This document shows, in pieces, positions 3,886 to 37,257 of a DNA stretch of 64,000 bases. The stretch is from the NCBI GenBank assembly GCA_015039365.1, contig WION01000011.1, positions 186,001 through 250,000 on the forward strand. The letters are read 5' to 3'. Position numbers and translations under genes: made by a program. The stretch is from Amanita rubescens (lineage: Eukaryota; Basidiomycota; Agaricomycetes; Agaricales; Amanitaceae). The notes beneath the pieces are model-generated. The model saw only the letters and a program-made list of their open reading frames with translations, did not search any database and was not told the origin of the DNA. Numbering within the stretch: the first letter of the stretch is position 1; every line of letters starts with the position of its first letter.

Positions 3886-6800
3886 ATGGAAGCAGCTACA
3901 GCTAGTGCACCTTCTTTGAGTAGGCTAATCTATGTGTCTCAGCATTGCTATTTGCTAATCCTTGACTGAAAGTATCAGATATAGATGAGACACATGTTCA
4001 AATGCTCAGGGAACGCTATCTGTGCCCACATTTTCGCATCCTTATTATTGGGAGGGCAAATGCAGGCAAGACAACCATCCTTGAGAATGTTTGTGGTGTA
4101 GCAAGGGGAACAGAGCCCATCATATATGACAGGAATGGTAAGTCAGTCTGAGTTTTTCACTTCAGTTGACTGTTGAGCTTTTTGTAGGTCATCAGCTTGA
4201 ACAGTCTGATATTCATTTGATACCATCACTTGAGGTGAGTCAGATAATGATGTATGAATGTACCCATTCACATGCAATGATAACAGAGAGGCCTGCATAA
4301 TATTGAGCATCAAATTACATACCCTGGAAGTAACTTTATCTTCCATGATGCTCAAGGTTTTGAATCTGGTTCAACTGAGGAATTGGACACTGCTTGGAAG
4401 TTCATTAAAAAGAAGTCTACAGAAACTGACCTGAAGAATCGGCTGCATGCAATTTGGTATCATCCTTTACCTCTTTTATAGTACTGGCTACCTAGCTGAC
4501 CCAACTTCCTGTAGGTATTGTATACCCATGGACAGCCCTCGTCCCATTCTGCCTGCAGAACTCAAGTTCTTTAATAAAGGGACTGGCAGAGGTAAATTGC
4601 CACCAAATCTACTAATCTACAGTGCACTGACCAGTAAATATCACCTTTACAGTTCCTTTAGTGGTTGTATTCACTAAATTTGATGGTCAAATAGCCAGTG
4701 AATCTGTCAACTTGACTGATGCAAAGGATGAGGATAAGTGGGAGAGAGCCAGGGAAATTGCTGAAATCACTTTTCAGAATGTCTATCTTCCTAAAGTTAT
4801 GGATGTTAAATATCCTCCCAAGGCATATGTGCGATTGGAAGGTGGGAATGATGAGGATTCCTTCCTGAAAAATGAGAGTAATGTTGTTTCATAGACATGG
4901 ATTTACCAGAAAAGAATTGTGCTGAATTAACTCAGCAAACTGCTGATGTAATAGATGATGACAGCATACATCACCTGTTTGTTTCAACACAGATGAACAA
5001 TCTGGACCTTTGTGTTAAATCTGCACTTCAGTGAGGGTTAAATTTTCAACATCACTTACTAACATTAACATTGTTTAGACATGTTCTGAAACATAAATAT
5101 TTGACATGGGATAATATCATTATGATAGTTTTTTCAAAATTTCCACATTTCTGGGTATGCTTTTTTTGTCAAACTGCACATAGGAAAAATTAATGGCAAT
5201 AGGCAGACAGGGAGGTAGGTGGCCTCACATGGAATAATAAATACTTGCACAAGTTCATCAGGAGGTAAGTAACACTCCATGCCTTCACATGACAACAAAC
5301 TTAGCCATGCTTCAGATGGCTGGCAATAAACAACTGAGTGAAACACAGGTTAGTTGTCACCATATTCTACTAGGTGGCAGGATCTGATGTTATTGATATC
5401 AGTGGGTAAGTGACATTGAACTAACATATGCATATGTAGATCTAATTGCTATTGTCTCATGATGACAGTTTGTAAGTAATGATCCTTTTGTGATCAGCAG
5501 CCTTGTCTCATAATCTACAGGAAGTGAGTGTCATCACTCATTTTGATTCTTTGTAAATTATTTCATGGTGCATCATATGACCAACAGAAAGTGAGTTAAT
5601 CTATCATTATGAACAGACTTGTCAATCTAGTCTCTTGTGGACAGGGAGTGAGTGATACAACACTGCCTCACACCACATCTGACCTGCTTAAAGAAAGTAA
5701 GCAAATTGATCTTGTTGAAGTTTATCAGACATAAATCAATGAACAATAGAAAGTTGGTGACTTACTGTTATCTGAAAGAGAATCTCAAGAAACCTCATTG
5801 GATTAATAACAGGAAGTAAAGGACATTTTCTTTCTGCATATCTGCTTCTGAACATTACCAAACAACAGACAGTAAATAGGTCTCCTTTTCAAAGCCTCTT
5901 GACAAGCAATTGAAAAACAAACAGGATGTATGTGATAATTTTGTGAGATATGAATTCATCATATGAAATACTAGAGGAAAGAGAGTCAGTGGCATCATTT
6001 GTTTTCTTTCTTCCCTACCCATTATGCTAATTCCATTCTAAAAGGAAGTGAGTAATGCTGGCCACTCTACTGCAAGACAATTTGGACACATTCTTTTGTT
6101 CTACAGATTGTGAGTGATATTGCAAGTTTCATATGAAATCACATATCTCTGAATAAACATAGAAGGTTAGCAGTGTGTCATCCTGGTTTTGTTGTTCAAA
6201 TGGTGACCTTATCAAAACTTTGCCTATGGCCTACAGTATGTGAGTAACATTGCAAATTGAAAGTTGTTCCATGAATCTTTTACCTACATCTGATAGGATG
6301 TGAGCAACACTGAAGATTTTTGTGGAAGGCAGTCTCATCACATCTTTTCCTATTTGGACTAACAGGGAGTGAGTGACATTATACATTGGCAAAAGGCAAT
6401 CGCATCACATCCTTTCCTTTGACCAACAGGTTGTGAGTCATCAGTTTGTGAAAGGCAGTCTTATTACATCTTTTTCTATGACTAACAGGGAGTGGGTGAC
6501 ATTTGCACATTTTGTGAAAAGGCAATCTCATCTAGTATGACTAACAGGTTGTGAGTGACATTGCACATTTTGTGGAAAGGCAGTCTCATCACAGTTTTTC
6601 CTATGACCAACAGGCTGTGAGTGTCATTGCACATTTTTCAAAAGGCAGTATCATAACATCTTTTCCTATGTCCAATAGGGAGTGAGTGACATTGCACATG
6701 TTTTGAAAGGCAGTCTCACCACATATTTTTCTATGACTAACAGGGAGTGAGTGACATTGCACATCTTGTGAAAAGCCTCAGTCTCATATCAGTTTGCCTA

Positions 6801-9598
6801 TGACCAACAGGCTGTGAGTGACATTGCACATTTTGTGAAAGGCAGTCTCATCACATCTTTCCTATGACTAACAGGTTGTTAGTGACCTTGCACATTTGTG
6901 AAAGGCAGTCTCATCACATGTTTTCCCATGACCAACAGCGAGTGAGTTGCATTCAAGTTGCACATTTTTTGAAAGACAATCTCATCACATCTTTTCCTAT
7001 GACCAATAGAATGTGAGTGACATTGCAAATTGTGTGAGATGCAATCTCACCACCTGCTTTCTTATGACAAACAGGGAGTGAGCAACATGATTATACATTG
7101 TGTGAAAGGCAAACTTATTGCATCTTTTCCTATGATCAACAGAAAGTGAGTGACATTGCACATTTTGTGAAAGGCAGTCTCATCACATCTTTCCTATGAC
7201 CAACAGCTTGTGAGTGATATTGCACAGTCTGTGAAAGGCAGTCTCATCACATCTTTTCCTATGACCAACAGCTTGTGAGTGACATTATATATTTTGTGAA
7301 AAAGCAGTCTTGTCACATCTTTCCCCACAGAATGTGAGTGACACTGCACATTTTGTGAAAGGCTGTCACCTCAATCACATCTTTTCCTACTATGATCTAC
7401 AGATTGTGAGTATCCTTGCACATTTTGTGAAAGGCATTCTCATCACATCTTCCCTATGACCAACAGTCAGTGAGTGACATGGCACATTTTGTAAAAGGCA
7501 GTCTCATCATATCTTTTCTTATCACTAACAGTTTGTGAGTGTCCTTGCACATTTGTGAAATGCACCCTCATCAAATCTTTTCCTATGAAACAGTTTGTGA
7601 GCAACATTGCACATTTTGTGAAAGGCAGTCCCATCACATCTTTTCCTCCAACAGCTTGTGAGGACATTGTCATTTTCAGTCTGATGATCATATTCCTATC
7701 ACAAACAGCTGGTAAGTGAAATGGCACATTTTGTGAAAGGTGGTCTCATCACATCTTTTCCTATCACCAACAGCGAGTGAGTGATATTGCACATGCTGTG
7801 AAAGGCAGTCTCATCACATCTTTTCCAATCACCAATAGTCTGTGGGTGACATTACACATTGTGTGAAAAAGTGGTCTCATCACATCTTTTCCTATCACCA
7901 ACAGCGGGTGAGTGACCTTGCACATTTTGTGAAAGGCAGTCCCATCAGATCTTTTTTGCTATCACCACCAGCTTGTCAGTGACAATGCACATTTTGTGAA
8001 AAGTGTTCTCATCACTTCTTTTCCTATGTCCAACAGCAAGTGAGTAACAATACACATTTTGTGAAAGGCAATCTCATCACATCATTTCCTATGACCAACA
8101 GGAAGTGAGTATTATTGCCTTTGTGAATGGCACTCTTATCACATCTTTTCCTATGACCAACAGTCTGTGAGTGACATTGCTCATTTTGTGAAAGGCAGTC
8201 TTGTCACATCTTTTCCTATGTCCAGCAGGGAGTGAGTGACATTGCTCATTTTGTGAAAGGCAGTCTTGTCACATCTACTCCTATGTCCACTAGGGAGTGA
8301 GTGACATTGCAAATTTTGTGAAAGGCAGTCTCACCACATCTTTTCCTATGACTAAAAGGAAGTGAGTGGCTTGCATATTCTCTGAAAGGCATTCTCATCA
8401 CATCTTTTCCTATCACTAACAGCAAGTGAGTGACAATGCACATTGTGTGAAAAGCAGTCTCATCATGTCTTTTCCTGTCACCAACAGGAAGTGAGTAATA
8501 TTGTACATTTTGTCTCATCACATCTTTTACTATCACCAACAGGAAGTGAGTGACATTGCACATTTTGTGAAAGGCAGTCTCATCACATCTTTTGCTACTG
8601 CCACCAGCTTGTCAGTGACATTGCACATTTTATGAAGGGCAATCTCACCACATCTTTTCCTATGACCAACAGGACGTAAGTGACATTGCATTTTTGTGAA
8701 TGGCAGTCTCATCACATCTTTTCCTACATGTTACCAACAGTCTGTAAGCAACATTATGCACTTTGTGAAAGGCACTCTCCTCACACCTTTTCCTATTACC
8801 AACAGTTTGTGAGTGACATTGCACATTTTGTGAAAGGCACAGTCTCATCACATCTTTTCCTTTGACAAACAGCTTGTGAGTGACATTGCAAATTTTCTGA
8901 CCAGCATTCTCAATATACCTCAATCCATGAATGTTTGATATATCATTACATGCTATGTAAATCAGAAAGTGAGGATTTTGCCATATCCTTTCTTTGTCTT
9001 CCTTTTACATTATTATCATCATAGATTGTAAGGTCTTCAACTCACCCACTCCCACCTTATGTGATCATTCCTCTTACTTAAATCACTTTTCTTGATTTCT
9101 AGGTGAGTGATTCTGGTCCATGAGGTATTGAATTTCATATCAGTTTGCATGCTAGTTTGTAGGTTTGATGATACACTGGATGTTTTACTCTATGTATCTC
9201 ATAACTAGCATGAACTTTTCTCCATGTTTGGAGCCAAGCAAAGGCCTTTTGTTGTCATGGTATTTTTGTTCCTCCTTTTCTAGGTAGCACACAACTGATG
9301 GCATAATCCATTGCAACAAGCCTACTGATTGCCAGGTCTTAGTTTGTAAATTATTCCTTTCCATCCACTATATTTCTCCTTAAACTTTCAAGCAATTATT
9401 ATCATTGCCAAGCAATCCTTTTGGATCAATAAACCATTTCTGCCATCAGTCACAGAAGCCTTGGATCAATGCAAGCAAAAAGGCTATGTTCAGAAGCTGA
9501 AGAGTGAAATTACTTCTGATTTTATCCACTCTGGTCATTTGGCCACATTACTCTATAGGAGGGTGATTAACATTGATGGTGGGTACTTTGTCTATTAG
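3886..9598 (+). CDS. P-loop GTPase-domain protein, with a microexon array between its N- and C-terminal exons
   Basis: N-terminal exons read 3886-3919, 3979-4137, 4188-4234, 4287-4456, 4515-4591, 4653-4877, 4910-5030 and 5079-5154 or 5193. They encode a fungal G-domain protein: P-loop GRANAGKTT (G1), FHDAQGFES (G3, DxxG-like), VVVFTKFD (G4, T-K-x-D), then CAELTQQTADVIDDD and LFVSTQMNNLDLCVKSA, typical of this expanded basidiomycete family. After W at 5152-5154 a donor (GTATGC) opens. If it is ignored, the frame stops at 5193. If it is used, the transcript enters the array of about 55-60 three-base exons. Coding-like sequence returns at about 9230-9283 (ELFSMFGAKQRPFVVM) and about 9400-9598 (KQSFWINKPFLPSVTEALDQ, ending TAG at 9598), resembling the C-terminal region I expect for the family. 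One gene from 3886 to 9598 is therefore my preferred model. The gene is AT-rich relative to its neighbours. Intron 4878-4909 would be only 32 nt. The N-terminal half is firm; joining the two halves is inference. Confidence 0.7.
5195..9040 (+). repeat. Tandem array of about 55-60 intron-like units separated by three-base exons
   Basis: Each unit of about 50-70 bp (mostly 62-67) starts with a 5' splice consensus (GTGAGTGACATTGCACA in the best copies). It continues through a conserved body (AAAGGCAGTCTCATCACATC) and ends with a branch-like and acceptor sequence (ATGACCAACAG or ATGACTAACAG). Between the CAG of one unit and the GTGAGT of the next lie, almost without exception, exactly three bases. 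These vary widely (GGA, GAA, AAA, CTT, GTT, GCT, CGA, TCT, TTT, CAA, GAC and others), although the flanking sequence is strongly conserved. By eye none of the triplets is a stop codon. Units in 6300-8900 are homogeneous; those in 5250-6300 and 8900-9040 are more diverged but keep the CAG-NNN-GTRAGT junction. The array sits between N- and C-terminal exons of the GTPase gene. Confidence 0.85.
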
Positions 9599-22006: not shown

Positions 22007-23527
22007 ATGTCTGTCAGTGGCGACACCATGGACATTTTACTGGATCCATATCCATCCACAACAGAAAACGTCCTTCACTCCGAGCGACACGACGATCCAG
22101 GCCCTCAATCGAGTTCTGACGAAGGAAGCATCGCTTCGTATGTGGACTCCTCGAGTAACGAGGCTGAATATGACGGTGCGCTATCCAGCCAAACGCTGAA
22201 TGCACACGGCACACCGAAGCGACCTACGAATGCTTTCATGATTTCTGCGCGTAAACGTAGGCCTCAAGCCTTCTCCGCCGAAAAACAAGCAATGCGGGAT
22301 CCATATCCATTCACAACCGAAAACGTCGATCACCGCGCCCTTCAATCCGAGCGACACGACGAGCCAGACTCTCAATCGGATTCAGAGGAAGGAAATATCG
22401 CTCCGTATGCGGACTCCTCGAGTAACGAGGCTGAATATGACGGTACTACTGCCATTGACGATTCAGATGCGCTATTCAGCCAAACGCTGCATGCACACGG
22501 CACACCGAAGCGACCTATGAATGCTTTCATAATTTCTGCGCGTAAACGTAGGCCTCAAGCCTTCTCCGCTGAAAAACAAGCAATGCGGGATCCATATCCA
22601 TCCACAACCGAAAACGTCGATCACAACTCCGAGCGACACGACGATCCAGGCTCTCAATCGGGTTCCGACGAAGGAAGTATCGCTCCGTATGTGGATCCCT
22701 CCAATTACGAGGTTGAATATGACGGTACTACGTCACCTAGTGCCATTGCAACCTTAGGCGACTCCGATGCGCTATCCAGCCAAACGCTGAATGCAGATGG
22801 CACACCGAAGCGACCTATGAATGCTTTCATGATTTTTGCGCGTGAACGTAGGCCTCAAGTCTCCGCTGAAAACCAAGCAATGCGCACAGGTGAAATTAGC
22901 AAGATTCTCAGCCACGAGTGGGCAGTCATGCCTCCGGTAAGTTTTTAAATCTTCGTCATCGCCTTAGCATAGCCGTTGACGGATTGACAGGGACAAAAGC
23001 AGGACTATCTCGACCGCGCAAAGCAGTTGAAGGAGATTTTCAACAGCAAATATCCCGATTATATCTACAGGCGACGACCGATGAATTATCGGCTAAATAA
23101 ATCGAAACCCAGGCACGACATGACAGGACTAGTAGACCAAGGCATCACCCCTGAAGCAGTGGAATACTACGGGAGCGCTCATCCTGAGGGTGATGACCGA
23201 CAATATGAAGGCGTTGCAAACATCGCCCATTCGTCTCGCATACAGCACGATTACATTGGGCCAGCGGCGCAGGCAAAATCAAACCCTTACCCTTACGTGA
23301 CTCCCGATTCACCCCATCGACACGAGAGTTCTCATGACCCTCGCATGCATTTTATCAGCCAGCAAGGCGAACGGCTAATAAACAGTTTCCATGCAAAGAG
23401 TTCCGGCTACGATTCCTCGGCTCAGTCCCGGCAAGCGCAGATTTATCCCGCAGACGCTGGTGAAACGCAAGGAAGATGGGAGCCAGAGACGGTGCGTTAT
23501 TGTTGTCGACGTAATTCATCTTTTTAA
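22007..23527 (+). CDS. MATA-type HMG-box DNA-binding protein with repeated half-boxes
   Basis: Two exons, 22007-22936 and 22991-23527, joined in phase 0 inside the HMG box. The full box begins KRPMNAFMIFARERRPQVSA, continues GEISKILSHEWAVMPP and GQKQDYLDRAKQLKEIFN, and ends HPDY/RP-like (SKYPDYIYRRRP), as in SOX/MATA boxes that bind the DNA minor groove. Upstream, the first strand and helix of the box (KRPxNAFxISARKRRPQAFS) occur twice more, each followed by DPYP(S/F)TTENV and an acidic serine-rich linker, with helices 2 and 3 absent. Family members act as mating-type or developmental transcription factors; the role here is unknown. The tail after the box is polar and disordered-looking. ATG 22007 is the first methionine in the frame; the frame extends further upstream without one. 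It ends about 100 bp before the first NLR gene. Confidence 0.82.
22041..22876 (+). repeat. Three in-frame tandem repeats covering linker plus HMG helix 1
   Basis: Units start near 22042, 22297 and 22588, each opening with GATCCATATCCATYCACAAC and ending with the half-box codons. Spacing is about 255 and 290 bp; the extra length in the later units is in the acidic linker. Conservation is high at the DNA level, so the amplification is fairly recent, and all copies stay in frame. Confidence 0.85.
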
Positions 23528-23629: not shown

Positions 23630-26600
23630 ATGGTCACCGGAAACAAAGAACATTTCAAGTTTGTGGCAGGCGCTGCCCTACACGCCCCTACTGAACGTCA
23701 ATGGGCGGAAATGGTTTTTCAGGAGTCATTATTGGCTATTTCCAGCTGCGAGAAGAAGCATGATCAAGTGAAATCTGCAGTGCGAGGCATACCAACAGCA
23801 GGAAAATGGTTCCTCGAAAGACCTGAATACCGCACATGGAAAGCGGGAATGTCATCCTCCTTTCCACTTTTGTTGACGGGTATCCGTGAGTAATATCAGC
23901 CTCTCATGCACTGTTTATGTTCACAAGTTGCGGTAACGACCAGCGGGCTCGGGTAAGACAGTTATCAGGTATGAACACTTGTATTTGCTCCGGCGAACAA
24001 CCTTATCTAATTACCACTTCCTTGCGCAGCTCAGTTGTGATAGACGACCTACGAGGAAGTGAACGACCTGTAAATGCGGTGATCTTTCTGTACTGTGAAT
24101 CTCCAGATCACACCAAGTACGACACCAGGTCTTTCCTTGGCAATCTCTTTGGGCAACTTCTGCTTCAACTTCCCCAATCCAAGTACTCTGCGGTCGACCG
24201 TTTAGTCAGATTATACAACGCATTTCAACCCTTTGACTTTGAAGCTCTAATTATAAATATCTCTCGCGATTATGAAAAGGTTTTTGTCGTTATCGATTCA
24301 TTAGATGAATGTAAAGACCCCGTCGATCTTCTGGAAAGCCTCCCAGACAACTGGCATGTATTCATCACATCTTTGAGAGAATACCCTGTCAGGAATGCAT
24401 ATGCAAATTTCAATCGAGTTGTAATCAACTCTATGGATACTATAGCCGATATACGACGATTCGTTCGGTTGGAGGTCAAAAAAATCAAGGTTCAAAACCC
24501 TAAGTTGGCAAGATGTATCGTAGATAAGTTGACTTTAGATGCCCATGGAAGGTGGGTCCTGGTTTCTACCTCTAATCGCATATCCTCACTCTAGACTTCA
24601 CAGCTTTTTTTGGCCAATTTGTCATATGCGACAGCTTCGGCGACTGTGGACAGAGTATCAGATCCATGAATCTCTCAAATGGCTACCGCAAGGCATAGAT
24701 GATCAATTTCCCAGAGCTTTGCGGTTAGAGAGTGCAAACCAGGTGTGGGGAAGAACCAGACACGCCATACGTCTAGTTCGACTTGCGGTGAGACCCATGA
24801 CGATCCCGGAGTTGGCAGAGGCATTGGGAACTGCCGAATCAAACGGGCAACAGACATCCGGTCTTTACGCTGCACGCATGGATATGGATATGCTCATTGA
24901 CGGTTGTTCCGACCTTATTCGTATCCCAGCCGATAAGCAAAGACAACCTGATTTTGTTGTACCTGCTCCCTCTCTCAAGGTTCCATTGTTTGGAGGCGCC
25001 GCACACAACGACGTTGCCAAGCTATGCTTAACCTATCTCAAATCTAAACTAGCGGATTATTCACCAGCAGTTCTTGCACGGACCTCCGATCATCCTTTTA
25101 TGAGGTATGCTGTCACTGGATGCCTCGATCATATTCGCGCCTCCGGAACGGACTCATTGGCAACAGAGTTTCGAGCTTTTTTTGCTCCAGGCTCGAAAAC
25201 ATTCGAAGGGTGGTGCCGTCTGTACAAGAAGCAACTTGGAAAGTTCGCAACTTCTGGCGTTGGGAAGCACATTGAACGTCTGGATTGCGCCCATCTTGCG
25301 GTCTGGTTTGACCTTCCCATGATATTGCGCAAGTTCAGTGCCGCCGAATTGGCGGCAAAAGATTACAGAGGGTTGAACACGCTACACGTCGCAGTTGGAA
25401 TACCTAGCTCCCTTGCCGCGATTGATTGTCTACTAGATAAAGTAGACATCAACAGTCTCAGCAGATACGGCGACACCGCGCTTCACATTGCTGTTTCGCA
25501 CTCGAAGAATCCGGAGATGGTTATTCTACGATTTTGGCGGGCAGATGTAAATGTACATGCAAAAGACAGGGCAGGACGAACGGCTTTGCATCTATCGATT
25601 CTGAATCCTGAACGTGCTTTTTTATGCATAGCTACGCTGCTTCAGAGCGGAGCTAACGTCAATGCTCAAGATGCTTCCTTACGCACGCCCTTGCATTTAG
25701 CTGCGGCGGCAGCGTAACTATGTGTCCAACAGGCGCTTCACGGGTACCTGAATGCCAAGGATCAACTGCAGGGGATTACGAGAAAATAATACGTCTCTTA
25801 TTGGATAATGACGCAGATATTGAATCACAGGACGAGGCAGGCAATACCCCTCTTCACATCGCTTCCGAAAATGTGAATGCCTCTGTCTCAAAGCTATTGC
25901 TCGAAAGAGGGGCATCAGTTATTTCTCGTAACAAGCACGGTAGTATGGCAATCCACTTGGCTGTTGGGAATGTGGTACCGGATTCATCCATGATCCGATT
26001 TCGTCTTCAGGAAATTCGTGATCAAGAGCTCACCGTTCATGCGCTTCTCGATCGCGGTGCAGACGTTAATGCCACGATTCAAAATAGCCAAACACCATTA
26101 CACCTCGCGGCACGTTCTCGTTGCGAGCTCTGTATTTTCAATGCCCTTCTACAAAAGGGCGCAGCAGTAACCGCAAATGATGACGATGGCGTTACAGCGT
26201 TGCATCTGGCGGTAAAGATGGCCCCAATATCAAACGTAAACGAACCTGAAGGTCATTGGCGTATTTCTTGGATCGCATGCAGACAGATCATCGAGTTTTT
26301 GATCGAGAATGGCTGCGACCCGAGCACGTTACATGGCATAGTCGAGAAAGTCTGCCAATTTTTAGAGAGCCATTACCCCGACATTGTCACGACTCGAGAT
26401 GATGAACTGAAGCCGGATCATCCCTCCGTAACTTGGTTTAAAGATGTTGTGATATTGCTTTGTTCCAAGGGAGCCACTGTTAGTTCAAAGACCAACCGAG
26501 GTTATGATATCCTACGCTTTGCAATGGAATCATGGGCTTCTTGGATTCTCGAGAATCATCAGATTCTTGCAGCAAGACGACGTTCAGATGATATGTCGCT

Positions 26601-26655
26601 CATAGGAACATACTTAGCGTGGTCGGACATTGCTAAGATAATACCCCGCAGCTGA
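23630..26655 (+). pseudogene. NACHT-ankyrin NLR-like gene with a frameshift (NLR 1)
   Basis: Exons 23630-23885, 23944-23968, 24030-24551 and 24604 onward. The 25-nt second exon carries the Walker A residues and, with its neighbours, reads GIPGSGKTVIS. Walker B is KVFVVIDSLDEC; VFITSLRE follows. After the intron comes the winged-helix-like part (FFWPICHMRQLRRLW; LAVRPMTIPELAEALG) and ankyrin repeats (TALHIAVSHSK; NTPLHIASENVNASV; TPLHLAARSRCELC). The frame hits TAA at 25715-25717 in the ankyrin region, and the remaining repeats resume in another frame to 26655. No intron I can see repairs this; the only nearby GT...AG segment is 19 nt and gives the wrong frame. The gene is therefore broken, truncated, or affected by an assembly error. 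It converges with NLR 2, with stops 79 bp apart. Confidence 0.85.
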
Positions 26656-26734
26656 TAGACAATACACTTGTACACATGGTTCTTTTTCAATAATCATATA
26701 TATGCGCATAGCGTTCGTTGGGAATGCCTACTGA

Positions 26735-29700
26735 CTATAGCTTAGAAATTCTGGTCCACTCTGTGAACAGAGAAAGTAACACTGTTCGTTTGGCCGCGAT
26801 AGATGGATGATGGGCACGAATCCACGAAGCCCAGGACCCAGTTATAAATGATAAAATGTCTTGACCCTCGTCGTTCCTATGATTCGCCTTTGCACCGTTA
26901 GAACAAAGCAGCTTCTTGACATTGTCGAACCACATTGTGGAGGGGTGTTCCGGCTCCAAGTCATCTTCAAAAACCGTCGCCGAAGCGCTGGCAATGACAT
27001 CTGCGTATTTGGTGTCTATAAGACGAAGAACTCCTTCTGCGGTTTGATGCAATGACAGCCGATCACTTTCATCTGTCATCAGCTTGCAGACTATCTGTCT
27101 AAACGTCACCCATGATATACGCCATTGATCGACCGGATCATTCGGGTTTAAGATTGGCGCTACTTTGGCGGCAATTTGCAAGGGTGTGTTGCCTTGTTCA
27201 TCTATTGAATCGATAATAGCACCACGGTCGATCAGGAGGGAGAAAATGGGTTCTTTGCAACACGACAATGACGCTAGGTGTAGTGGAGAGCTTCTGACGT
27301 CATCATTAACGGGTAAATTGGCAGGTGCGGCGTGGCGAAGCAGAAGTGCTATGGTCAATTCTTGGTCTCTTTGTTCTGGAGTCGTAAAAACATTCCGCCG
27401 ATTCGTCGGCAAGTTACTTGAAATTGCAAGATGAAGCGGTGTACATCCTTCGTCATTAACAGCGTTCACGTATGCTCCCTTGTTTAGAAGAAATTCTACC
27501 GCAAATGCATTGACGCTATTTGCGGCGAGGTGGAGAGGAGTGTTTCCTACTTCATCCCTAAACAATACGTCCGCACCGTGGACTAGCAAAATCTTCATAG
27601 CCTGGATGTAGTCTTCGGCGGTAGATGTCTGACGGTCTAACTGCGAGGACGTTCTGCTCACTACATATTCGGGAGCAGAGGCTGCAATATGAAGAGGCGT
27701 GCATAGTGACCTGTCTCGAGCATTGGGATCGGCGTGACTTTGCAACAACGGAACAATGCATGGCATGGCGCGCCCAGGATTCAACATGGCCAAATGTAGA
27801 GCCGTTCGTCCCTCGCTATCCATCGCGTTCATCTCCGCACCCGCTTCCCAGAGCCGCTGAATGACGGCCTTCCCATGGGCCTGGAACCGAGTGATTGCGA
27901 CATGGAGGGCGGTTTTTCCTTCTTTACTAAGTTGACCGACGTCAACCTTGTCTAGTAACTGATCGATGACCGAAATGGAACTCGATATATCCATCGCGAC
28001 GTGTAGAGCGCTCAGTCCTCTATAGTCCTCTGCGCAGAGTTGATCATCGCTGAAGTGTGGAATGATCATTGGAAGATCAAACCAGACGGCAAGATGTGCT
28101 GGGTCAAGGTGTTCCAAGTGGTCTAAAACCTTTGAAGATGCAAAACTTCCTGACCACCTAGCGAATAGGTGTCTCCATATTTCGAACGTGGCCGCTTCTG
28201 GAGCTAGGAATTGCCGGAATTCCCTTGCTAACGCATCTGTCCCAGAGGCCCGAATATGTTCAAGCCAGCCTGCAACAGCATACGCCGCAAAGGGATGACG
28301 AGATATCTCAGATAAGACGGAGCGATAGTGCCTCATGGCTTTGAGTTTCAGATAAGACAAGCAAAGTTTTGCCAGTTCGGTATGCACGCTAGAGCGATGA
28401 AGAGCATAGCTCTTCATCGGTTCGGAAAGTTTTGCTGGGTCAGCTAGCATGGATCTTTTGACGAAATCGTGAAATGGAGCAACGATTTCCAACTGTCCTT
28501 CTTCCCCCAAGGGAACACAGATGAGAAGATTTGCACAACTGTCAACGAGCAGCATGGGATCCCGAACCACGTGTGATAATTCCCATTTATTCGTCATTTC
28601 CCCAGTTGCAACACCTTCGGCCAACTCGGGAAGGGTAAGAGGCCTTGTTGCACATAAGACAAACTTGAGAGCAAGGCTAGAGCGCTCAAAACGTTCGCGA
28701 CGCCGTCGAGAGATCGCTTTTAGCGCCCCTGCAACAGTATCGCCAATCCTCGACGGCAATGTGTGCAGGGATTTTTCGATGTCACCTAGTGTATCCGATT
28801 CTCGGAGTTGCTCGATATGACAGGCGGGCCAAAGAAAACTGAAAATATTGAGAAGGAGTAGATTATGATCCAACAATACTTACGTTCCTTGCGCGCCCGA
28901 GGTCAACTTTTGAACAATGGATTCAACAACTTTCTCGTCGTGGACTCCGATGCGTTTTGTGATCCGTTCAGCTTCCAACCTAACAAACTGCTGCACGTCA
29001 TGGGCGATATCATCTGCGCGAATTGTCAGTTGGGTATGATCTCGGAAGTGTTCTCGAATATCGCGATGATGTCGGCTAGTGACAAAGATGTACAGTTCGG
29101 TTCCCAGCTCCTTGAGAATTGGAAGGAACTGAGGGAGGCAATCACATTCATCTAACCCATCAATTATCACAAACGTCTTTCCGATCTCTCGAGATACCTG
29201 CATGATACACTTCGCAAAGTCAGAGTAGCAAAAGAGGTGCAGCTTCGTGAACTGTTCGCGTAGTTTATTTTCGGCGTCTGATTTTCGCGGTGCTCTCTGC
29301 AAGAGTTGGCCTAGAAGACTGCAGAGGATGTTCTTCGGATCACGTTTTCTGTCATCTTTCCGGTCACAGAAGCAGAAAATGACGGGGAATTGATGGCCTT
29401 TTTCTCTTTCAACATTGGCGATAACGATAGAGCTGCGCGGCGAAACCATATAATTGAGATCGTACAAACATAACTTACGCCATACCTGAGTACAGTCTTT
29501 CCCGAACCGGCTAATCAAATGACATCTAAGACTGATTATGGGGAAGAATAACGATTTAGCACATACGGACACCTTTCAACCATAGCAAACGCGACGCTGA
29601 TAGTCCCTCTTTCCATTCTATATATTCTTTCTTTTTAAGAAGCCATCGTCCCGCTGTTGGATGTGCAACTCCCCGTACTGCTTCAAATTTATCTTGATAG

Positions 29701-29894
29701 TCAATTGAGCAAAGATTTTTTACAAATTCTAATTCGAGAATTGGTCAAAAGCGAGAGCTCGCTGCATGAGGATAACCTCACCATCTAGTTGAACTATGAA
29801 GTCTCCTGCAATGTCGTAGAACACGGATCCGATCAAAGCCAATTGTTGGACTTCCGAGACGTCCCCAAGGTCGAGAGTACGGTTATTTGGCATG
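26735..29894 (-). CDS. NACHT-ankyrin NLR-like protein (NLR 2)
   Basis: Five exons on the minus strand: 29894-29782, 29728-29567, 29510-29486, 29432-28884 and 28838-26735. The N-terminus (MPNNRTLDLGDVSEVQQLAL, then SVFYDIAGDF) is a short variable leader with the I-x-G-x-x pattern seen in its paralogues. The TAGRWLLKKKEYIEWKEGLS and SRLLWLKGV block precedes the Walker A GSGKT on a 25-nt exon. Walker B is FVIIDGLDECD; the sensor-like stretch is IFVTSRHH. A helical linker with LTLPELAEGV follows, then about eight ankyrin repeats (for example RTALHLAMLNPG, NTPLHLAANSVNAFAVEFLL, SSPLHLASLSCCKEP). All exons join in frame with no stops, so the gene appears functional. It shares a 344-bp divergent promoter with NLR 3. 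A role in fungal non-self recognition is plausible from the architecture but not shown. Confidence 0.9.
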
Positions 29895-30238
29895 GGCGCA
29901 CGTTGACGCCGTAGTGCGCCGTTTGGCTGTCAACAATGTCATGGGTATTGATCAGAGTTGCGCCACGTGCCAACGGCCTTAATAATAATATTAATAACAC
30001 GTGGATGTGACTGCTTCAAGTTTGACATTTTTTTTACAACTTGAAATAAGGTGTGTTTTTACCCATTCTCTGACGACTCTTTATGCAAAAAGTCCCTGAA
30101 GGAGTCCCTAATTTTGTTGAGGATGCAGATCGCTGGTCTTCAACAGATTCAAAATGGGGTAAAGCCTGAGAAGTCTTGGACGAGGCGATGCTCTACTTTG
30201 GGTCTACGCCGGCGCCTTGGGTTGTAATCTGGCACTGC
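29895..30238. promoter_or_regulatory. Divergent intergenic region between NLR 2 and NLR 3
   Basis: Only 344 bp separate the two divergent start codons, so the promoters probably overlap. It contains two CACGTG-type or related E-box hexamers (near 29954-29970 and 29998-30003) and a TAATAATAATATTAATAA stretch. Co-regulation of the two genes is inferred. Confidence 0.5.
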
Positions 30239-33200
30239 ATGGCGTTTTCTGCATCTAGCCACTTTGCAATTAGCGGTAGCGAAATCACTAACATTTCTGG
30301 AAATTACTACACTATCAACACTGGTATCGGTAAGCCTCAATTGCTTATCCATCCTTTTTCAGTTTGTCTAAATTTTTTCGTCTAGGGGACGCTCTCGAGG
30401 ACTTTCACCGATTTCTATCGTTCGTCAATTGTGATGCGAAACACAGGAAAGTGAGATCTGCTATCAGGATGGGGACCCTCGCAGGGGAGTGGCTTCTGCG
30501 ACATGAAGCGTATACGATGTGGAAGGAAGAAACGTCGTTAACGCGCCTTCTTTGGATAAAGGGCGTACGTGAGTCCATCGCTTACAGTCAAACGATTTAT
30601 TGCTACCACGCACATATAGCAGGTGCAGGGAAATCAGTTCTTAGCTCGGTTATCATAGATGACCTCCGCAAAATCCAGAACCCGCGTCTGGCGGTTGCAT
30701 TCTTCTACTGCGAACTCCAAGATCCTCTAAAACGTGACCCGACAAATGTCCTAAGCAATTTGCTTGCTCAACTTTTACGCAAAGTCTCTCGAGGCAAACC
30801 AGCCGTCACCAATTTACTCAAACAATGTCCAAATCCTCAATCCGTTCACGACTTCGATCTGACAGAGCTTATCTTGGAATTCGCGCGAGAGTTTGATAAG
30901 ACCTTCGTCGTGATTGATGCCGTAGACGAATGTGACAATCTTGCCGAGTTGCTACCAGCTCTGACAACTCTGGCGGTGGAAATCAACGTGCTCGCTACTG
31001 GTCGCGACAATTCTCAAATTCGCAACGAGTTTCAGGGGCACGGAAAAGTGATAATTGGACGAGACGATATCAACCATGACGTGCGGAGGTTCGTCGAAAC
31101 GGATGTGAGGCACGTCAAAACTCGGGATCCACAGCTACTTCAGGACATTATTGATAGGTTGATCTCCGGTGCACAAGGAACGTAAGCAGTATCTATCCGT
31201 TTTACATCTTTTGATATCCAGACCTTTCTCTTCAGCTTTCTATGGCCCTCGTATCACATGCGGCGATTGAGAAAGTTGCGGACAGATTACGATATACGAG
31301 AAGCTTTGGACGACTTACCCCACGGAATGGAGGACACGTTATCTAGAGCTCTCGAAACCATTGATGCGCATCCTAATTCAGACCGCCTTCGTCGAGTGCT
31401 GCGACTGGCTATATACGCAGTACAACCTCTCACGCTGTACGAATTAGCGGAAGGCGTCGCGACAGCTGAAATGACCGACGTATGGGATCCAGCGCGCGTC
31501 GTGACGGATCCAATATCCCTCATCGACGATTGCGCAAATCTCCTCGTCTGTGCTCCTAGCAGTACTTTTCCACATCTACCTTACGTGGTTATTCCTTTTC
31601 ACGCGTCGGTCAAAGAATTCCTCGCGAACCCGGCCAGGATAACCCAGCCGTTCCTCAGATATGCTCTGTACCCGCAGAGTGTTTTACATTGCGATTTGGC
31701 AAGATTGTGCTTTTCTTGTCTCAAACTGAGGTGCGAGGACGAAGGAATTGCGCTAGGGAAAGGCTCGAAGACACCGTTCGCCCAGTATGCTGCTGAAGGA
31801 TGGGTAGAGCATATACGTGCTTCGGGATCGGATGTGTTAGTAAGGGAGTTCCGGGAGTTTGTAGCCGCCAGATCCACAACGCTCAAGGTGTGGGCCGCAC
31901 TTTACGAGGAACTAGGAGCGCTGCAGCTTTACGACAAGAATGGCGTCAAGGTTGAGCTTCATCTCCTCACTCCCGGCCACCTCGCCGTCAGACTCGACCT
32001 TGCGATGATGATCCCACATTTTGGTACTGAAGAACTCATGGCTGAAGATCACAGAGGGTCAACACCGCTATGCGTCGCCGTGGAAAGATCTGCCTCCCTA
32101 ATGCTTCTCGACAATCTTTTGAAGAGGGTGGACGTTAATCAAATTAACCGCGACAGTGAAACGGCCCTTCATATCGCTGCGTCCACCGAAGACGTTCGGA
32201 ATTCGGAAGCTATCATTCACCGGCTTTTGGTGGCTGGTGCAAATCCACACTGTCAGAACGACGAGGGACAGAGTGCACTGCACCTTCTGATGAACAATCC
32301 TATGCGAGCATTGTCATGTGTATCCCTCCTGCTACGGCGCGGGGCTGATATCCATGCCCGCGATGCGTATTCTCGTACACCACTCCATATTGCGGCCGCT
32401 GCTGAAATGTACGATGAAACTAGACTTTCGTATACAGGAGATGAGAATGGGACGTTGGAAGACTATCCGCGCGTCGCAGAGGGTTATGTAAAGCTCCTGA
32501 AAACTTTGCTAGACCATGGTGCAGACCCTCGGTGCGTCGACAGCAAACGCGAAACTCCGCTACATTTTGCAGCACGTAACGGCAATGCTTTTGCTGTCGA
32601 GTTTCTCGTGAATAACGGAGCATACGTTGATGCGAAGAATGAAGGTGGATACACACCACTTCACCAGGTCGTCTCTGATCAAACGCCAAGTCTTTGGTCA
32701 AACGAAGCTGGGCTATCTCAGAAGCACAAAGACTGTGAACTTACCCTCAAGCATATTCTCGGTTACGGTGCTGATGTTAACGCGCGAATCAGAGCCAAGC
32801 GTCGCACGCCGCTACATCTCGCAGCACTGTCACGTTGTCAACTGCCCATCATTGCTTGCCTCGTAGATGGAGGCGCAAAAGTGAATTGTATAGATAATCA
32901 TCACATCACTCCCTTGCATCTGGCTGCCAAAATGGCGCCGATATTCGACAGTCACAAACCTCCAGAGGAATGGCAAATTTCCTGGGTAGCCTGTAGAATG
33001 ATCATCGACATTCTCATCAGGTACACCGCTATCGACGAGAACGAGTGGGATACGCTATGCTCCCAGGTTGTTCGACTTTCGCGCAAGGGTGATCTGCGCA
33101 TCAGCCATCGGTTATCGCCGGGAAAAGTGAATCGGACGGAGAAGACGCATGACGCAGCATCGTGGTTTAATGGCTTTTTGAAACTGTTGTGTTCTAAAGG

Positions 33201-33456
33201 TGCATCCGTGAACGCCCGTAACGATCGCAATCACAACGTCTTGCAATATGCGACGTTGTTTTGGGCGTCGTGGATCTTCAAATATCACGCGTCGCTGCTC
33301 AGTGATAACGTCGTCTGGGGCCCAGACGAGATGACCAAGGAAGCGGCAGAGGTGGAATGGTCTCGCATCTTACATTCAATGAATCCTAGGATGCATGGTC
33401 GACCGTATGTAGGCTCGCAGATACCGTCACACAAGAGAAGACGATTTGGAAAATGA
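30239..33456 (+). CDS. NACHT-ankyrin NLR-like protein (NLR 3)
   Basis: Exons 30239-30329, 30386-30568, 30620-31181 and 31236-33456. The leader exon encodes SGSEITNISGNYYTINTG; the next encodes NCDAKHRKVRSAIRMGTLAG and SLTRLLWIKGV. The Walker A is GAGKS and, unlike its paralogues, the following intron is absent, so Walker A and SSVIIDDLRK are on one exon. Walker B is FVVIDAVDECD. Ankyrin repeats include RTPLHIAAAAEMYDE, TPLHFAARNGNAFAVEFLV and TPLHLAAKMAPIFDS. The protein ends in a basic tail (SHKRRRFGK) that could act as a nuclear localisation signal and is absent from the other copies. An alternative in-frame start lies at 30188. A decayed duplicate of this gene lies at 20.5-21.3 kb. The model is fully open. 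Confidence 0.9.
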
Positions 33457-33776
33457 TTGGTGAGCGGTATTGATTCGTGCTTTGATACTTAACGAACGTC
33501 TTTCTGCAGGTGATATACTCGCTCTACATTTCCGATGTCTGTTGGATCCAGGGCAGGACAGGTGCGCAACGCCGTGGGCCGGCGTAAGGGAGTACATATT
33601 GATGCTTGTAATCATGACCGAAGATAAGCACAATTGCATGTCCATTTCGGGGTCAACGGATCTGGACAGGCCTCACAGCGTGAGAAGCTTCTGCCAGTGC
33701 ATATGCACGTGGTTACAGAATAGACGCTCGTTACATGAGGCTTACAGCCGTTTAGGCTTCAATGAACGATAACCAG

Positions 33777-36700
33777 ATGTCCGTTCAACAACCCCCACAA
33801 ATGAACCTTAACGGATGTACACTGAATGGGATTGCAGGACACTACATACAGATTCAACGAGATGGCAGTGAGTATAGTAGACTTGGTCGGACTCAGGCTT
33901 CTTATTCACCGCTTCATAGCTCAGCGAGATGGTAAGCATAGGCTTGATCGTGTGCAGAATTCTCACCAATGTTCCCGTAATTCAACGAGGCGGTAGGTAT
34001 ATGGATTTGATCAAGCTTATGTATCTCACTAGCGTCTCTGCTCGAACTAGAATTGAAGAAGCTCGCTGAGGAGGATCACGCGAAATTGGGGAAGTTGAAG
34101 GATGCGACAAACGCATATCCGGCTGCTGGACAATGGCTACTCCAACGCGAAGAGTATAAAAGTTGGAAGGAGGGGTTATCAACGTCGCGCTTGCTATGGC
34201 TAAAGGGCACACGTGAGTGTTGGATCATTGAACGCTGCATAACTCGTTTAAACGTTCTTTCAATAGCAGGTGCGGGGAAGACAGTTCTCAGGTACGATCC
34301 ATCTACCTGAACCATGGTTGTTCAAACGAATCCGATATGCTCTCCGCGCAGCTCTGTCGTAATTGCGGATGTCAAAAAGACCGCAGGATGTCACATTATC
34401 TATGGTTTCTGTGACCAAAAAGACGACAAAAAACGTGATCCAACGAATTTGCTCGGTAGTCTATTGAGCCAGCTTTTGCGGAGTGCTCCAAACCCAGAAG
34501 CTGAGAACGAAATTCGCAGGCAGTGCGACCGGGAAGCGCTTTTCTGCAGCAGCGACCTTAAAAATCTTATCAAGGAGCAATCACCGGAATCTGAGAAGAC
34601 GTTTGCGGTAATCGATGGTCTAGATGAATGTGATAATCTCCCTCAGTTACTCCCCCTCCTCAAGGATCTCGCGACGAAGCTGTACGTCTTCGTCAGCAGT
34701 CGGGATCATCGCCATATTCGAGAGCACTTCCAAGATCAGACGCAGCTAGTGATTGGTGTGGCTGATATCGCACATGATGTGCAACAATTTGTAAAGGCGA
34801 GGCTAGAAGCCATCAGCAATCGCGTTCGACTTGAACGACGTATTGTCGATTCCTATTTCCGCCGGTTGACATCGGGCGCTAATGGAACGTACGTGTCTAG
34901 ATGCGATAGTAACATTGCCCTTTGCTTAGCTCTTTAAGTTTTCTTTGGCCTGCCTCCCATATCGAACAACTCCAAGATTCAATTACGCAACGGGACATTG
35001 ATAATTCACTAAATGATTTGCCCCGAGGTGTTTGTGAAATGATGGAAAGGATGCTAAAATGGATCCATTCAAAACGCACAGATCTCGTTCTTAAACTGGC
35101 CCTATGCGCGACGAGGCATCTTACTCTTCCCGAATTGGCTGAAGGTGTTGGAGTTGATGAGATGACAGACATATGGGAGCAGTCGCGCGTGGCCGCTAAT
35201 CCCTTGTTGCTCGTTGACGACTGCGCAAATCTCCTTGTTTGTGTTCCCCACCCAGAACAAGACCTATTGCAGATCGTCGTTCCGTTCCACGAGCTAGTCG
35301 AAAATTTTCTACTGCCTGACACTGATAAACCCACGAGAAGCAAAACATTTCATCGACGTACCGTGCACGTCCAACTCGCGAGGCTTTGCCTAAAGTATTT
35401 AAAGCTCCGATCCGTCTTATCTCAAGCTCACCGGCATCCATTTGCGGCGTACGCGGTTCCAGGGTGGCTAGAACATATTCGCGCATCTGGTACTGGTGAA
35501 CTAGCGAAGGATTTCGAGGAATTCTTATCACCGTGGTCTTCTACATTCGAAGGATGGAGGCGCTTATTTGCTAAATGGTCAGGGCCGTTTACATCTCAGA
35601 AGGTATTAGAGCATCTCGAGCACCACGTTCATCCCGCACATCTAGCTGTCTGGTTCGATCTTCCAATGCTTATCTCATGTTTTAGCCGGGACCAGCTGTG
35701 CGCAGAAGATTATAGAGGTCTAAGCGCTCTGCACATTGCAATGGAAATACCTAATCCTACCTCCGTCGTCAAATCCTTACTGGACATTGTCGATGTAAAC
35801 TACCTTGATCGAGACGGTCGTACTGCCCTCCATGTCGTCGTCTCTCAGTTCAGAGCCGATGGAGAGGCAGTGATCCAGCGGCTCTGCGAGAAAGGCGCCA
35901 AAATTGACAAGCCGGATAAAGAAGGACGAACTGCTCTACATCTAGCGATGTTAAATCCCGGAGCCGCGCAGCGGTGTATCCATCCGCTGTTGGAACGGCA
36001 TGCGAGTCCTTGTGCTCGAGATCTCTCCCGTCAAACCCCTCTTCACATTGCAGCGGCTGCTCCTAGATATGTATGGAGTCGAGCGTCCGAGAATCCCGAA
36101 TGCCAGGGAAAAGCCGCGGAAGCCTATTGTCGCGCGATGAACGCCTTGTTAGCCCGTCAATCCGATACGCAATCTACTGACTGGAAAGGCAACACTCCTC
36201 TTCACCTCGCTGCAGATAAAGTCAATGCGTTTGCAGTAGAACACCTATTAAAACGGAGGGCATTCGTAAATGCCGTTAACAACGAAGGATGCACACCTCT
36301 TCATCTTGCAATTAAATGTAACCTGCCAGGGTGCCGGCGAAATGAATCTACGATACAAGAGCAGAGATATCGACCATTTACTATAATGTCAGGGGGCCAG
36401 AGGAACGTGTTTACCACACCAGAACAAAGGGATCAACATCTCACCGTGAAATATCTCATTCTCAATGCCGCTTCGATTAATACGCCCGTCAACGACGAAT
36501 CGCAAAGATCGCCATTACATCTTGCAGGACTCTCATGCTGCAACGAGGCCATTTTCAAACTTCTTATCGAAAATAACGCAGCTGTTAACGCAATAGATGC
36601 AAAAGGTAATACTGCCCTGCATCTTGCCGCTATGATGGCGCCGATAAAAAATCCCGAAGACCCCGTGAACCAATGGCGCATATCATGGACATCTCTCAGG

Positions 36701-37057
36701 CAGATAATACGTAGTCTAATTACGAACGAAAGCGATTTGCATGCATTGCATCAAATAGCGGAGAAAAATCTTCACTTTATAAGCTCCCGTTATGCAGGCG
36801 CCATTGCGGCGGCAGCGCCCCAAGATGACAAAGATGATTTAGATCATCCCTTCACAGCGTGGTTCGAACAGGTAAAAAAGCTACTCTGTTCGAAAGGTGC
36901 AAGGATTGACCGGACGAATGACGAGAGCCAGAACGTTTTAGCTTGTACAGCCGCTTTCTGGTCTTCGTGGATTCAGAGCAATTACCGAGAAATGGCAGCG
37001 AGACAAATCACAGTATGTGAATTGTACACAGAGTGGAAAAAGATTTCCAAGTTATAG
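33777..37057 (+). CDS. NACHT-ankyrin NLR-like protein (NLR 4)
   Basis: Exons 33777-33867, 33920-33931 (12 nt), 34033-34212, 34267-34291 (25 nt, Walker A), 34352-34888 and 34939-37057. The leader (NLNGCTLNGIAGHYIQIQRD) resembles the other copies' G-x-x-x-x-x-x-G pattern. GAGKT is the P-loop, FAVIDGLDECD the Walker B and YVFVSSRDHR the following motif. After the LTLPELAEGVG helix come ankyrin repeats (RTALHVVVSQF, NTPLHLAADKVNAFAVEHLL, NTALHLAAMMAPIKN). Compared with NLR 2, the ankyrin region carries an extra stretch (RYRPFTIMSGGQ) before RNVFTTPEQRDQ. The 5' exons lie in a three-unit duplication of an exon-donor-intron segment. The gene is open throughout and converges with the fusion gene, with stops about 200 bp apart. 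Confidence 0.88.
33840..34032 (+). repeat. Three copies of a short exon-donor-intron segment in the NLR 4 leader
   Basis: ATTCAACGAGATGGCA followed by GTGAGTATAG, then CTCAGCGAGATG followed by GTAAGCATAG, then ATTCAACGAGGCG followed by GTAGGTATAT, spaced about 55-65 bp apart. The second copy is bounded by TAG and GTAAGC and acts as a 12-nt exon in my model. The third lacks an obvious acceptor directly upstream and is probably skipped. Confidence 0.65.
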
Positions 37058-37257
37058 TTTCATAACGATATTTTCGTAGTGACTCGTTTGCATACAACTT
37101 TATGCGATCACCATATGCTTACGTTTTCAGCCTGACTGTTACTACTGTACACGAAATAGAAGGAAAATTGGTGAATGAAAAAAGCGATGGTGAATAAAAA
37201 AAGCGAGGCATAAAGTATTCGTGGCCGTAAAATTAAGTAAGCTAGTTGTGCATTTGC

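Follow-up and report, generated by a model that had tools for sequence, protein, structure and literature searches.

Can a gene be spliced one codon at a time? The question is raised by a run of short introns in the mushroom Amanita rubescens, on the forward strand of contig WION01000011.1, within a stretch of 64,000 nucleotides (nt), here called the window, of a 75.7 Mb assembly of 786 contigs (GCA_015039365.1). A sequence-only reading of the window had proposed an array of about 55-60 introns separated by 3-nt exons at 5195-9040. Using a parse that by construction admits only stop-free whole-codon exons (the framed parse), we found 59 three-nt exons in an array of slightly wider extent, 5155-9208; the triplets are of 23 kinds, in line with the more than 20 noted earlier. 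The other array exons are one of 6 nt, one of 12 nt and one of 33 nt, with one zero-nt AG|GT junction, and the introns measure 46-90 nt (median 61). In framed models the phase is 0 at each array exon, and the last two exons meet as 1 + 2 nt. Parts of the window array are tandem-repeat-like. We consider it very probable, the inferred splicing and recombination included, that the stretch of peptide joining a G domain to a C-terminal domain is written here with one codon per exon.

The array lies in a host gene whose exons within 3978-5154 specify a predicted protein with a P-loop G domain, its sequence there ending in ..SKFPHFW. The GRANAGKTT motif is conserved in an alignment of the host protein with its homologs. 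A protein search for these gave 837 matches, of which 120 were listed and 28 sequences read (proteins are labeled P00xx). When the homologs, in place of the window's own model, were scanned, matches to the MMR_HSR1, Arf and small_GTP models fell below curated cut-offs; Pfam, NCBIfam and PDB sequence searches with the homologs gave nothing above cut-off, and a search of a plasmid collection gave no match. The more distant proteins P0023, P0028 and P0034 carry a similar WF....E..YY segment and C-terminus.

The window array is one of many. An array query of 476 bases had at least 322 matches in the genome, which we grouped by eye into at least 30 array clusters on 28 contigs, window included. Our sample comprises 21 loci: the window (W) and 20 of the 29 other clusters (sister loci, L0xx). 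In the stretches fetched, all 20 sister loci have upstream exons, a downstream exon, or both, the downstream exon being absent from L021 and L030 and the upstream exons from L038. The C-terminal exon, with at least 150 scored matches in the genome, was matched by eye in 29 of the 30 clusters, and the remaining cluster runs off its contig. All these arrays, at no fewer than 30 loci, sit at a single position within a single gene family. The earlier reading of tandem introns and single-codon exons had the structure right and understated it. Several contigs look like haplotype copies, for example L022/L028/L030 and L025/L031. Framed models, obtained for 16 of the 21 loci with 28 to 87 three-nt exons each, carry the chain in frame from the G domain to the C-terminal exons, only whole codons being allowed. 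No such model was obtained for L034 and L035, where the fit failed, or for L021, L030 and L038, where one flank is missing, and that of L024 was reached only with implausible exons. In L035 (G000:C124) the array is broken by about 1 kb or more that is unlike the units.

The excess of exact 3-nt spacing is far beyond chance. With the reversed pattern as control, CCAACAG-NNN-GTGAGT junctions number 2443 genome-wide (control 0), and the same pattern with 2, 4 or 6 nt in the middle occurs 16 (control 0), 9 (control 2) and 33 (control 3) times. Across the 21 loci, 967 of 1208 GTRAGY donors lie exactly 3 nt past a YAG, the next most frequent distances being 2 nt (25) and 6 nt (16). An unframed parse of 18 loci, with no preference for threes and no stop rule and with splice-site weights trained on sites 3 nt apart, returned 3-nt exons in 1002 of 1177 cases, followed by 4 nt (28) and 6 nt (20). 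The three triplet columns have entropies of 1.82, 1.81 and 1.45 bits, the first two being the highest of all scored columns (GT, AG and parts of the splice sites are fixed by the selecting pattern), which confirms the earlier impression of variable triplets inside conserved units. Thirteen of the 16 two-nt junctions in the genome-wide count fall in L034 (C749) and L024 (C13:58x). The introns of L034 carry many indels and 32 to 41 substitutions relative to the common intron (6 to 40 in L022), and this locus may be badly assembled or decayed; L024, unlike L034, has 1 to 7 substitutions and not many indels.

If the triplets are codons, stops should be rare among them. In the 21 loci, 966 triplets in the setting YAG-NNN-GTRAGY, drawn from 513 distinct contexts, use 37 of the 64 possible triplets, specify 19 amino acids and include zero stops; nor is there a stop among the 1002 unframed 3-nt exons. 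Over the 513 distinct contexts, which are related to each other, a first-position T is found in 0 of 261 triplets where it would create a stop (NAA, NGA or NAG) and in 77 of 252 elsewhere. Genome-wide, AACAG-NNN-GTGAGT yields TRA twice (control 2), against 735 CRA and 471 TWT (controls 0). The stop-free character of the triplets, first judged by eye, is thereby borne out. Three TGA units sit in arrays L045, L046 and L047, and these genes may be dead or may skip the unit. Codon choice in the variable part of the tract is stereotyped, with 349 NRA, 168 NYT, 44 NAT, 27 NYA and no NGT; such a rule would keep a further YAG or GT from arising where exon and intron meet, and we take it to reflect a constraint of splicing.

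Closely related arrays allow putative exons, splice sites and introns to be compared directly. W can be aligned to L021 because the introns of these two are unique, and over 5155-9032 they differ at 83 of 3065 intron positions (2.7%), at 1 of 554 splice-site positions (0.2%) and at 3 of 225 exon positions. The sole changed single codon is synonymous, and the other two exon changes lie in the 33-nt exon; intron indels are many, whereas exons and splice sites are free of deletions (insertions were left unclassified). L036 and L040 show 184 differences in 4813 intron positions, 6 in 842 splice-site positions and 10 in 300 exon positions, with one whole unit missing; here the codon changes alter amino acids. 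These counts show purifying selection on the predicted splice sites in both testable pairs.

The arrangement is also old. Two distant paralogs, C168 and C107, have intron interior identities of 0.552 and 0.539, compared with 0.494 and 0.482 for shuffled letters, and their small sampled stretches hold 54 and 35 junctions with 3-nt exons, 89 codons without a stop, hits less than 30 nt past a junction (a TGA read from GTGAGT itself) having been dropped. The chain in C168 starts E-W-F-E-Q-G-K-R, resembling a run of 15 single-codon exons in the window (5403..6239, W-F-E-K-G-K-K-E-T-D-R-E-I-K-Y) that is largely conserved among paralogs and has homologous segments in C168 and in proteins P0001 and P0005; C107 seems to be a copy without the 5' part. 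Together these show the predicted one-codon arrangement persisting in paralogs whose introns are near saturation.

Two relatives of the host protein contain such a tract. P0001 (386 aa, from a 1446-bp contig) contains ..FGKFPHLWVDRAVTNEQLSETKWFEKGKKESDREIEYDGGPPQRG..LLFRIVRFHFRGSPNPTSC.., and P0005 (311 aa, from a 1903-bp contig) contains ..FGKFPHFWVGRDEMANKQLSEAQWFEHGKKDTDKQIVYDGERLLQRNYEHQYQ... Since a genomic copy of the sampled type spans several kb, these two short, apparently intron-free contigs should come from spliced RNA, which implies that the relatives are spliced. P0001 would join 58 single codons, from W to I, if its gene is built alike; only the first part of its tract can be aligned to known arrays. 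Its segment IVRFHFRGSPNPTSC resembles a read-through of the last intron (80-87% over 15 residues in L038, L024, L026 and L039, E 0.003-0.02, and lower elsewhere), so the intron after the ATT-equivalent codon appears to be retained in this cDNA-like sequence. In P0103 and P0104, more distant and cDNA-like, E, R, L, H and Y abound in low-complexity tracts at about the same place; the arrangement may extend beyond Amanita.

Such tracts also bear on how the units would be used. The array could be above all a generator of isoforms in which many subsets of codons are skipped, under regulation or at random: with whole codons as exons, the frame holds whichever subset is used, and small symmetrical exons are described as serving this purpose in the micro-exon genes (MEGs) of schistosomes (PMC4350168). 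The long unbroken runs in P0001 and P0005 argue otherwise, and the depletion of stops within single codons suggests that most units are usually included. We regard a primary role in isoform production as possible and, on balance, somewhat unlikely.

The sequence-only reading had itself offered an alternative, a satellite grown within one large intron, with the triplets as decoys or spacers and the flanking exons joined directly. The tandem-repeat-like parts of the array would suit it, as would the expansion and contraction of arrays (L022 and L028, with identical flanks, are one unit apart) and the annotated protein P0064 of a relative, whose gene model skips the region. It is contradicted by genome-wide stop avoidance and by the constraint on splice sites and codons; the 3-nt spacing outlasts introns that are near-saturated, the conserved WFE.GKK segment is encoded, and the tract occurs in proteins from short contigs. 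We judge a satellite extremely improbable. A plain minisatellite without function was likewise ruled out, because stops are depleted, splice sites are constrained and the arrangement survives in old paralogs with near-saturated introns.

Stop avoidance, purifying selection on splice sites, old paralogs, an in-frame chain and apparently intron-free sequences all support the proposal of one codon per exon, and the predicted splicing of the window gene's array is strongly supported. Several observations weigh against it. L034 and L024 hold several 2- and 4-nt exons, and L027 and L029, in which single 4-nt cases were found, have at least one 2- or 4-nt exon each. Only 3 of 18 unframed chains left the remainder needed to stay in frame, a misfit that we attribute to misreading of the ordinary exons at both array ends. 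Both genome-wide TRA cases are TGA units within arrays, and a third TGA unit, with a GTAAGT donor, was seen by eye among the matches listed. The standing of P0001 and P0005 as cDNA is deduced from their short contigs, they come from relatives and not from the window's own gene, the rest of the P0005 tail is without explanation, and protein searches for further transcripts returned only P0005, P0003 and P0001 again. Finally, in the annotated A. rubescens protein P0064, FPHYW is almost directly joined to the C-terminal part, as direct joining of the flanking exons would give; either this gene model fails on an array or the gene has none. Other annotated models, P0002, P0003 and P0008, stop soon after HFW, which ends the exon before the array.

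How could such an array arise and change? A feature that the earlier reading had not foreseen is that many introns are identical and that introns and codons appear to evolve independently. One 62-nt intron occurs letter for letter 352 times in the genome (control 0), and at least 330 of these copies lie in the sampled arrays, in 18 of the 21 loci (none in W, L021 or L039). The 330 follow 27 kinds of trimer, a few of which (e.g. CAG) may stem from shorter exons. In L022, 39 identical introns stand behind 8 codons, and L023 has 20 core introns, 19 of them identical, with 5 codons. The most similar introns share codons slightly more often than shuffled ones in some arrays, and no more often in the rest. 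Codon and intron bases are associated mainly over the nearest 15 nt or so, part of which may be splice-site context, although single far columns also stand out. These patterns show that introns and putative codons evolve largely separately. We rejected a simple model in which units of intron plus codon are duplicated in tandem and later altered by point mutation: it predicts that similar introns share codons, which is barely seen. Among 15 loci, only L024 has clearly more runs of one repeated codon than its shuffles, and L027 has marginally more.

A mobile, introner-like 62-nt master intron, copied without codons by way of DNA or intron RNA, would also explain this decoupling. The abundance of exact copies behind so many kinds of triplet speaks for such an element, as does the concentration of codon-intron association at near positions, and the 12 loci with at least 10 identical introns are 0 to 9.5% apart in their upstream DNA. 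However, at least 330 of the 352 exact copies sit in one gene slot and not in unrelated genes, insertion alone predicts no 3-nt spacing, and it leaves unexplained the turnover of codons between loci whose flanks are 1-2% apart. A mobile intron is in our view unlikely as the account of these arrays.

The fate of codons in close pairs points to another route. In 11 of 17 pairs, flanks are 0.6-2.5% apart and introns near-identical, with variable tracts that agree within 2 SD of shuffled order, while 8-10 of 10 conserved codons are identical. These 11 pairs derive from 8 loci in two groups (L024, L025, L026, L027 and L032; L023, L029 and L033) and are not independent, and the L024 model with implausible exons, which enters the comparison, reduces the independent cases further. 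Where introns have diverged, as in L036/L040 (array introns about 0.89 identical, flanks 0.5-1.8% apart), 0.90 of the codons are kept. L025/L031, with identical flanks, keep 0.94 of their codons, and L025, L031 and L027 differ by blocks of codons and not by scattered changes. L039/L025 and L037/L039, 3-6% apart, also have codon tracts at the shuffled level. Taken together with W/L021, the pairs suggest that codon turnover depends on intron identity, as it would if recombination were responsible.

We therefore envisage the following sequence of events. The spliceosome would remove each short intron by intron definition, adding one codon each time. With exons of a single codon, the frame stays intact however units are gained, lost or exchanged. 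In loci whose introns are almost all identical, the 62-bp intron stretches would serve as recombination sites between every pair of codons; units could be exchanged, gained and lost, making the tract hypervariable, and tracts with diverged introns, such as the window's, would change slowly. Codon shuffling through identical introns is, we infer from sequence comparison, the best account of the decoupling. That the whole amounts to a codon-by-codon cassette array, a tract rewritten among dozens of paralogs with frame and splice sites left whole, and hence an undescribed system of germline hypervariability, is a proposition on which we are evenly divided; at a guess, the variable tract might serve in recognition.

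The recombination step has its own difficulties. The window array holds none of the exact 62-nt introns. L025 and L027, with identical-type introns and flanks 2.3% apart upstream and 0% downstream, keep 0.85 of their codons. The contrast with slowly changing arrays rests on two pairs, W/L021 and L036/L040. A search for donors of the swapped blocks through shared codon words gave no clear donor; words were shared only between near-identical loci, apart from one of 5 codons. A mutator acting at the junctions and targeting the codons themselves would likewise leave wholly different codon tracts beside letter-identical introns, as is seen. No enzyme or element of that kind was identified, however, and the codons come from a stereotyped set and differ by blocks among L025, L031 and L027, which makes a mutator very unlikely.

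The earlier reading knew of no described gene with such a run of 3-nt exons, and we found none in the open-access literature (subscription papers and preprints lay outside the scope), which likewise held no paper combining Amanita with microexon or Amanita with introner. Among the nearest systems, schistosome MEGs keep a large part of their coding sequence in tiny symmetrical exons, which permits frame-neutral variation (PMC4350168), a likeness to the present arrays. Here, by contrast, the exons are of one codon and follow one another by the dozen at a single site, the introns between them measure about 62 nt and are often identical, the protein family is unrelated, and the micro-exons cover the tract only, the G domain and C-terminus being in ordinary exons. 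MEG exons are larger than 3 nt. Single spliced 3-nt microexons that add one codon are described in NCAM, troponin T and homothorax (PMC7392893, PMC8042270); those are single exons, whereas here each of 16 models has 28 to 87, and the feature is family-wide.

Introners, reported in 5% of the species examined (PMC9860276), are alike in placing near-identical introns at many places of one genome; the text of that paper gives no hit for Amanita, Basidiomycota, tandem or microexon. In A. rubescens at least 330 of the 352 exact copies are in tandem in one gene-family slot, with codons between them, and not at the unrelated positions expected of introners (exact copies only were counted, inexact ones elsewhere were not sought, and 22 are unplaced); one of those 22, on C12, has another 3-nt junction no more than 300 bp away. 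Stwintrons resemble the arrays as adjoining or nested fungal introns that multiply, but there the introns are nested and here a codon stands between each pair. Recursive splicing proceeds by ratchet points. Its RS-exons are similar in showing AG|GT junctions where the exon is tiny or has zero length (PMC6224609), and the window has one zero-nt junction at 9102/9103; the triplets here differ in being coding and would be expected to be kept.

Within the window gene, all on the forward strand, the exons of the P-loop G domain with the GRANAGKTT motif lie at 3978..5032 (placed by tblastn, homologs and alignment, not all exon ends being fixed). The last ordinary exon before the array, 5079..5154, ends ..HVLKHKYLTWDNIIMIVFSKFPHFW in phase 0 (tblastn), with the same end in 19 of 20 sister loci, the exception, L038, being judged on the stretch fetched. 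A 12-nt exon, ADRE (5203..5214), placed by the framed parse and homologs, opens the array; its counterpart is VDRE in most paralogs and a 15-nt VDRSE in L036/L040. The unframed parse often favored a 4-nt reading, GGAG, of this exon, and P0001 (HLW-VDRA-V) and P0005 (HFW-VGRD-E-MANKQLSEAQ) back that of 12 nt. The first single-codon exon, GAG (E), follows at 5262..5264 (framed parse). Next comes the 33-nt exon MAGNKQLSETQ (5316..5348; framed parse and homologs), which is 30 nt in most paralogs and corresponds to TNEQLSETK in P0001 and MANKQLSEAQ in P0005.

Beyond the conserved run of 15 codons, the framed parse places the variable tract at 6297..8875, with 40 single-codon exons and one two-codon exon (8226-8231), and then AAA (K) at 8966..8968. 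ATT (I) at 9025..9027 was located by tblastn of the P0001 tail. The sequence then has the zero-nt junction AG|GTGAGT at 9102..9103, possibly a recursive splice point or a unit minus its codon; AG|GTGAG stands at the equivalent place in L036, L038, L040 and L042. TTT (F) at 9156..9158 is a single-codon exon in the framed parse or part of a longer intron. Downstream lie an exon HELFSMFGAKQRPFVVM in phase 0 (9209..9259, its frame set by eye from the alignment), like PELFSVFGEHSTF of P0028; an exon PTDCQVLV plus 1 nt (9321..9345, boundaries by eye from the alignment), like ATACQVLA of P0028; and, by tblastn, the C-terminal exon (S)IIIIAKQSFWINKPFLPSVTEALDQ.. to the stop (9393..9598).

Elsewhere the window carries, on the reverse strand at 39990-44741, an NLR-like gene that contains a tandem array of repeats; its open reading frame (ORF) of 1583 aa includes NB-ARC and some 24 TPR repeats of 126 bp that resemble one another (82% matches). 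Five ankyrin-repeat ORFs on both strands occupy 24539-39429, a Copia-type retroelement ORF of 1510 aa (RVT_2, gag, integrase core) lies on the reverse strand at 52132-56664, and a tandem repeat of 291-bp period (2.4 copies) lies at 22177-22884 inside an ORF with an HMG box.

The arrays take exon-intron structure to its limit: a single genome has at least 30 genes in which dozens of successive exons hold one codon each. Gene finders are seemingly unable to model them, as the truncated models P0002, P0003 and P0008 and the leap in P0064 illustrate. The arrays open to test the spliceosome's treatment of successive 3-nt exons, the multiplication of such introns and the question whether identical introns can act as recombination sites that diversify a protein at the level of codons. 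The contrast between arrays with identical introns, in which the codon tracts of close paralogs are mostly unrelated, and arrays with diverged ones, in which codons are conserved (two pairs), is a natural experiment on the origin of hypervariable proteins.

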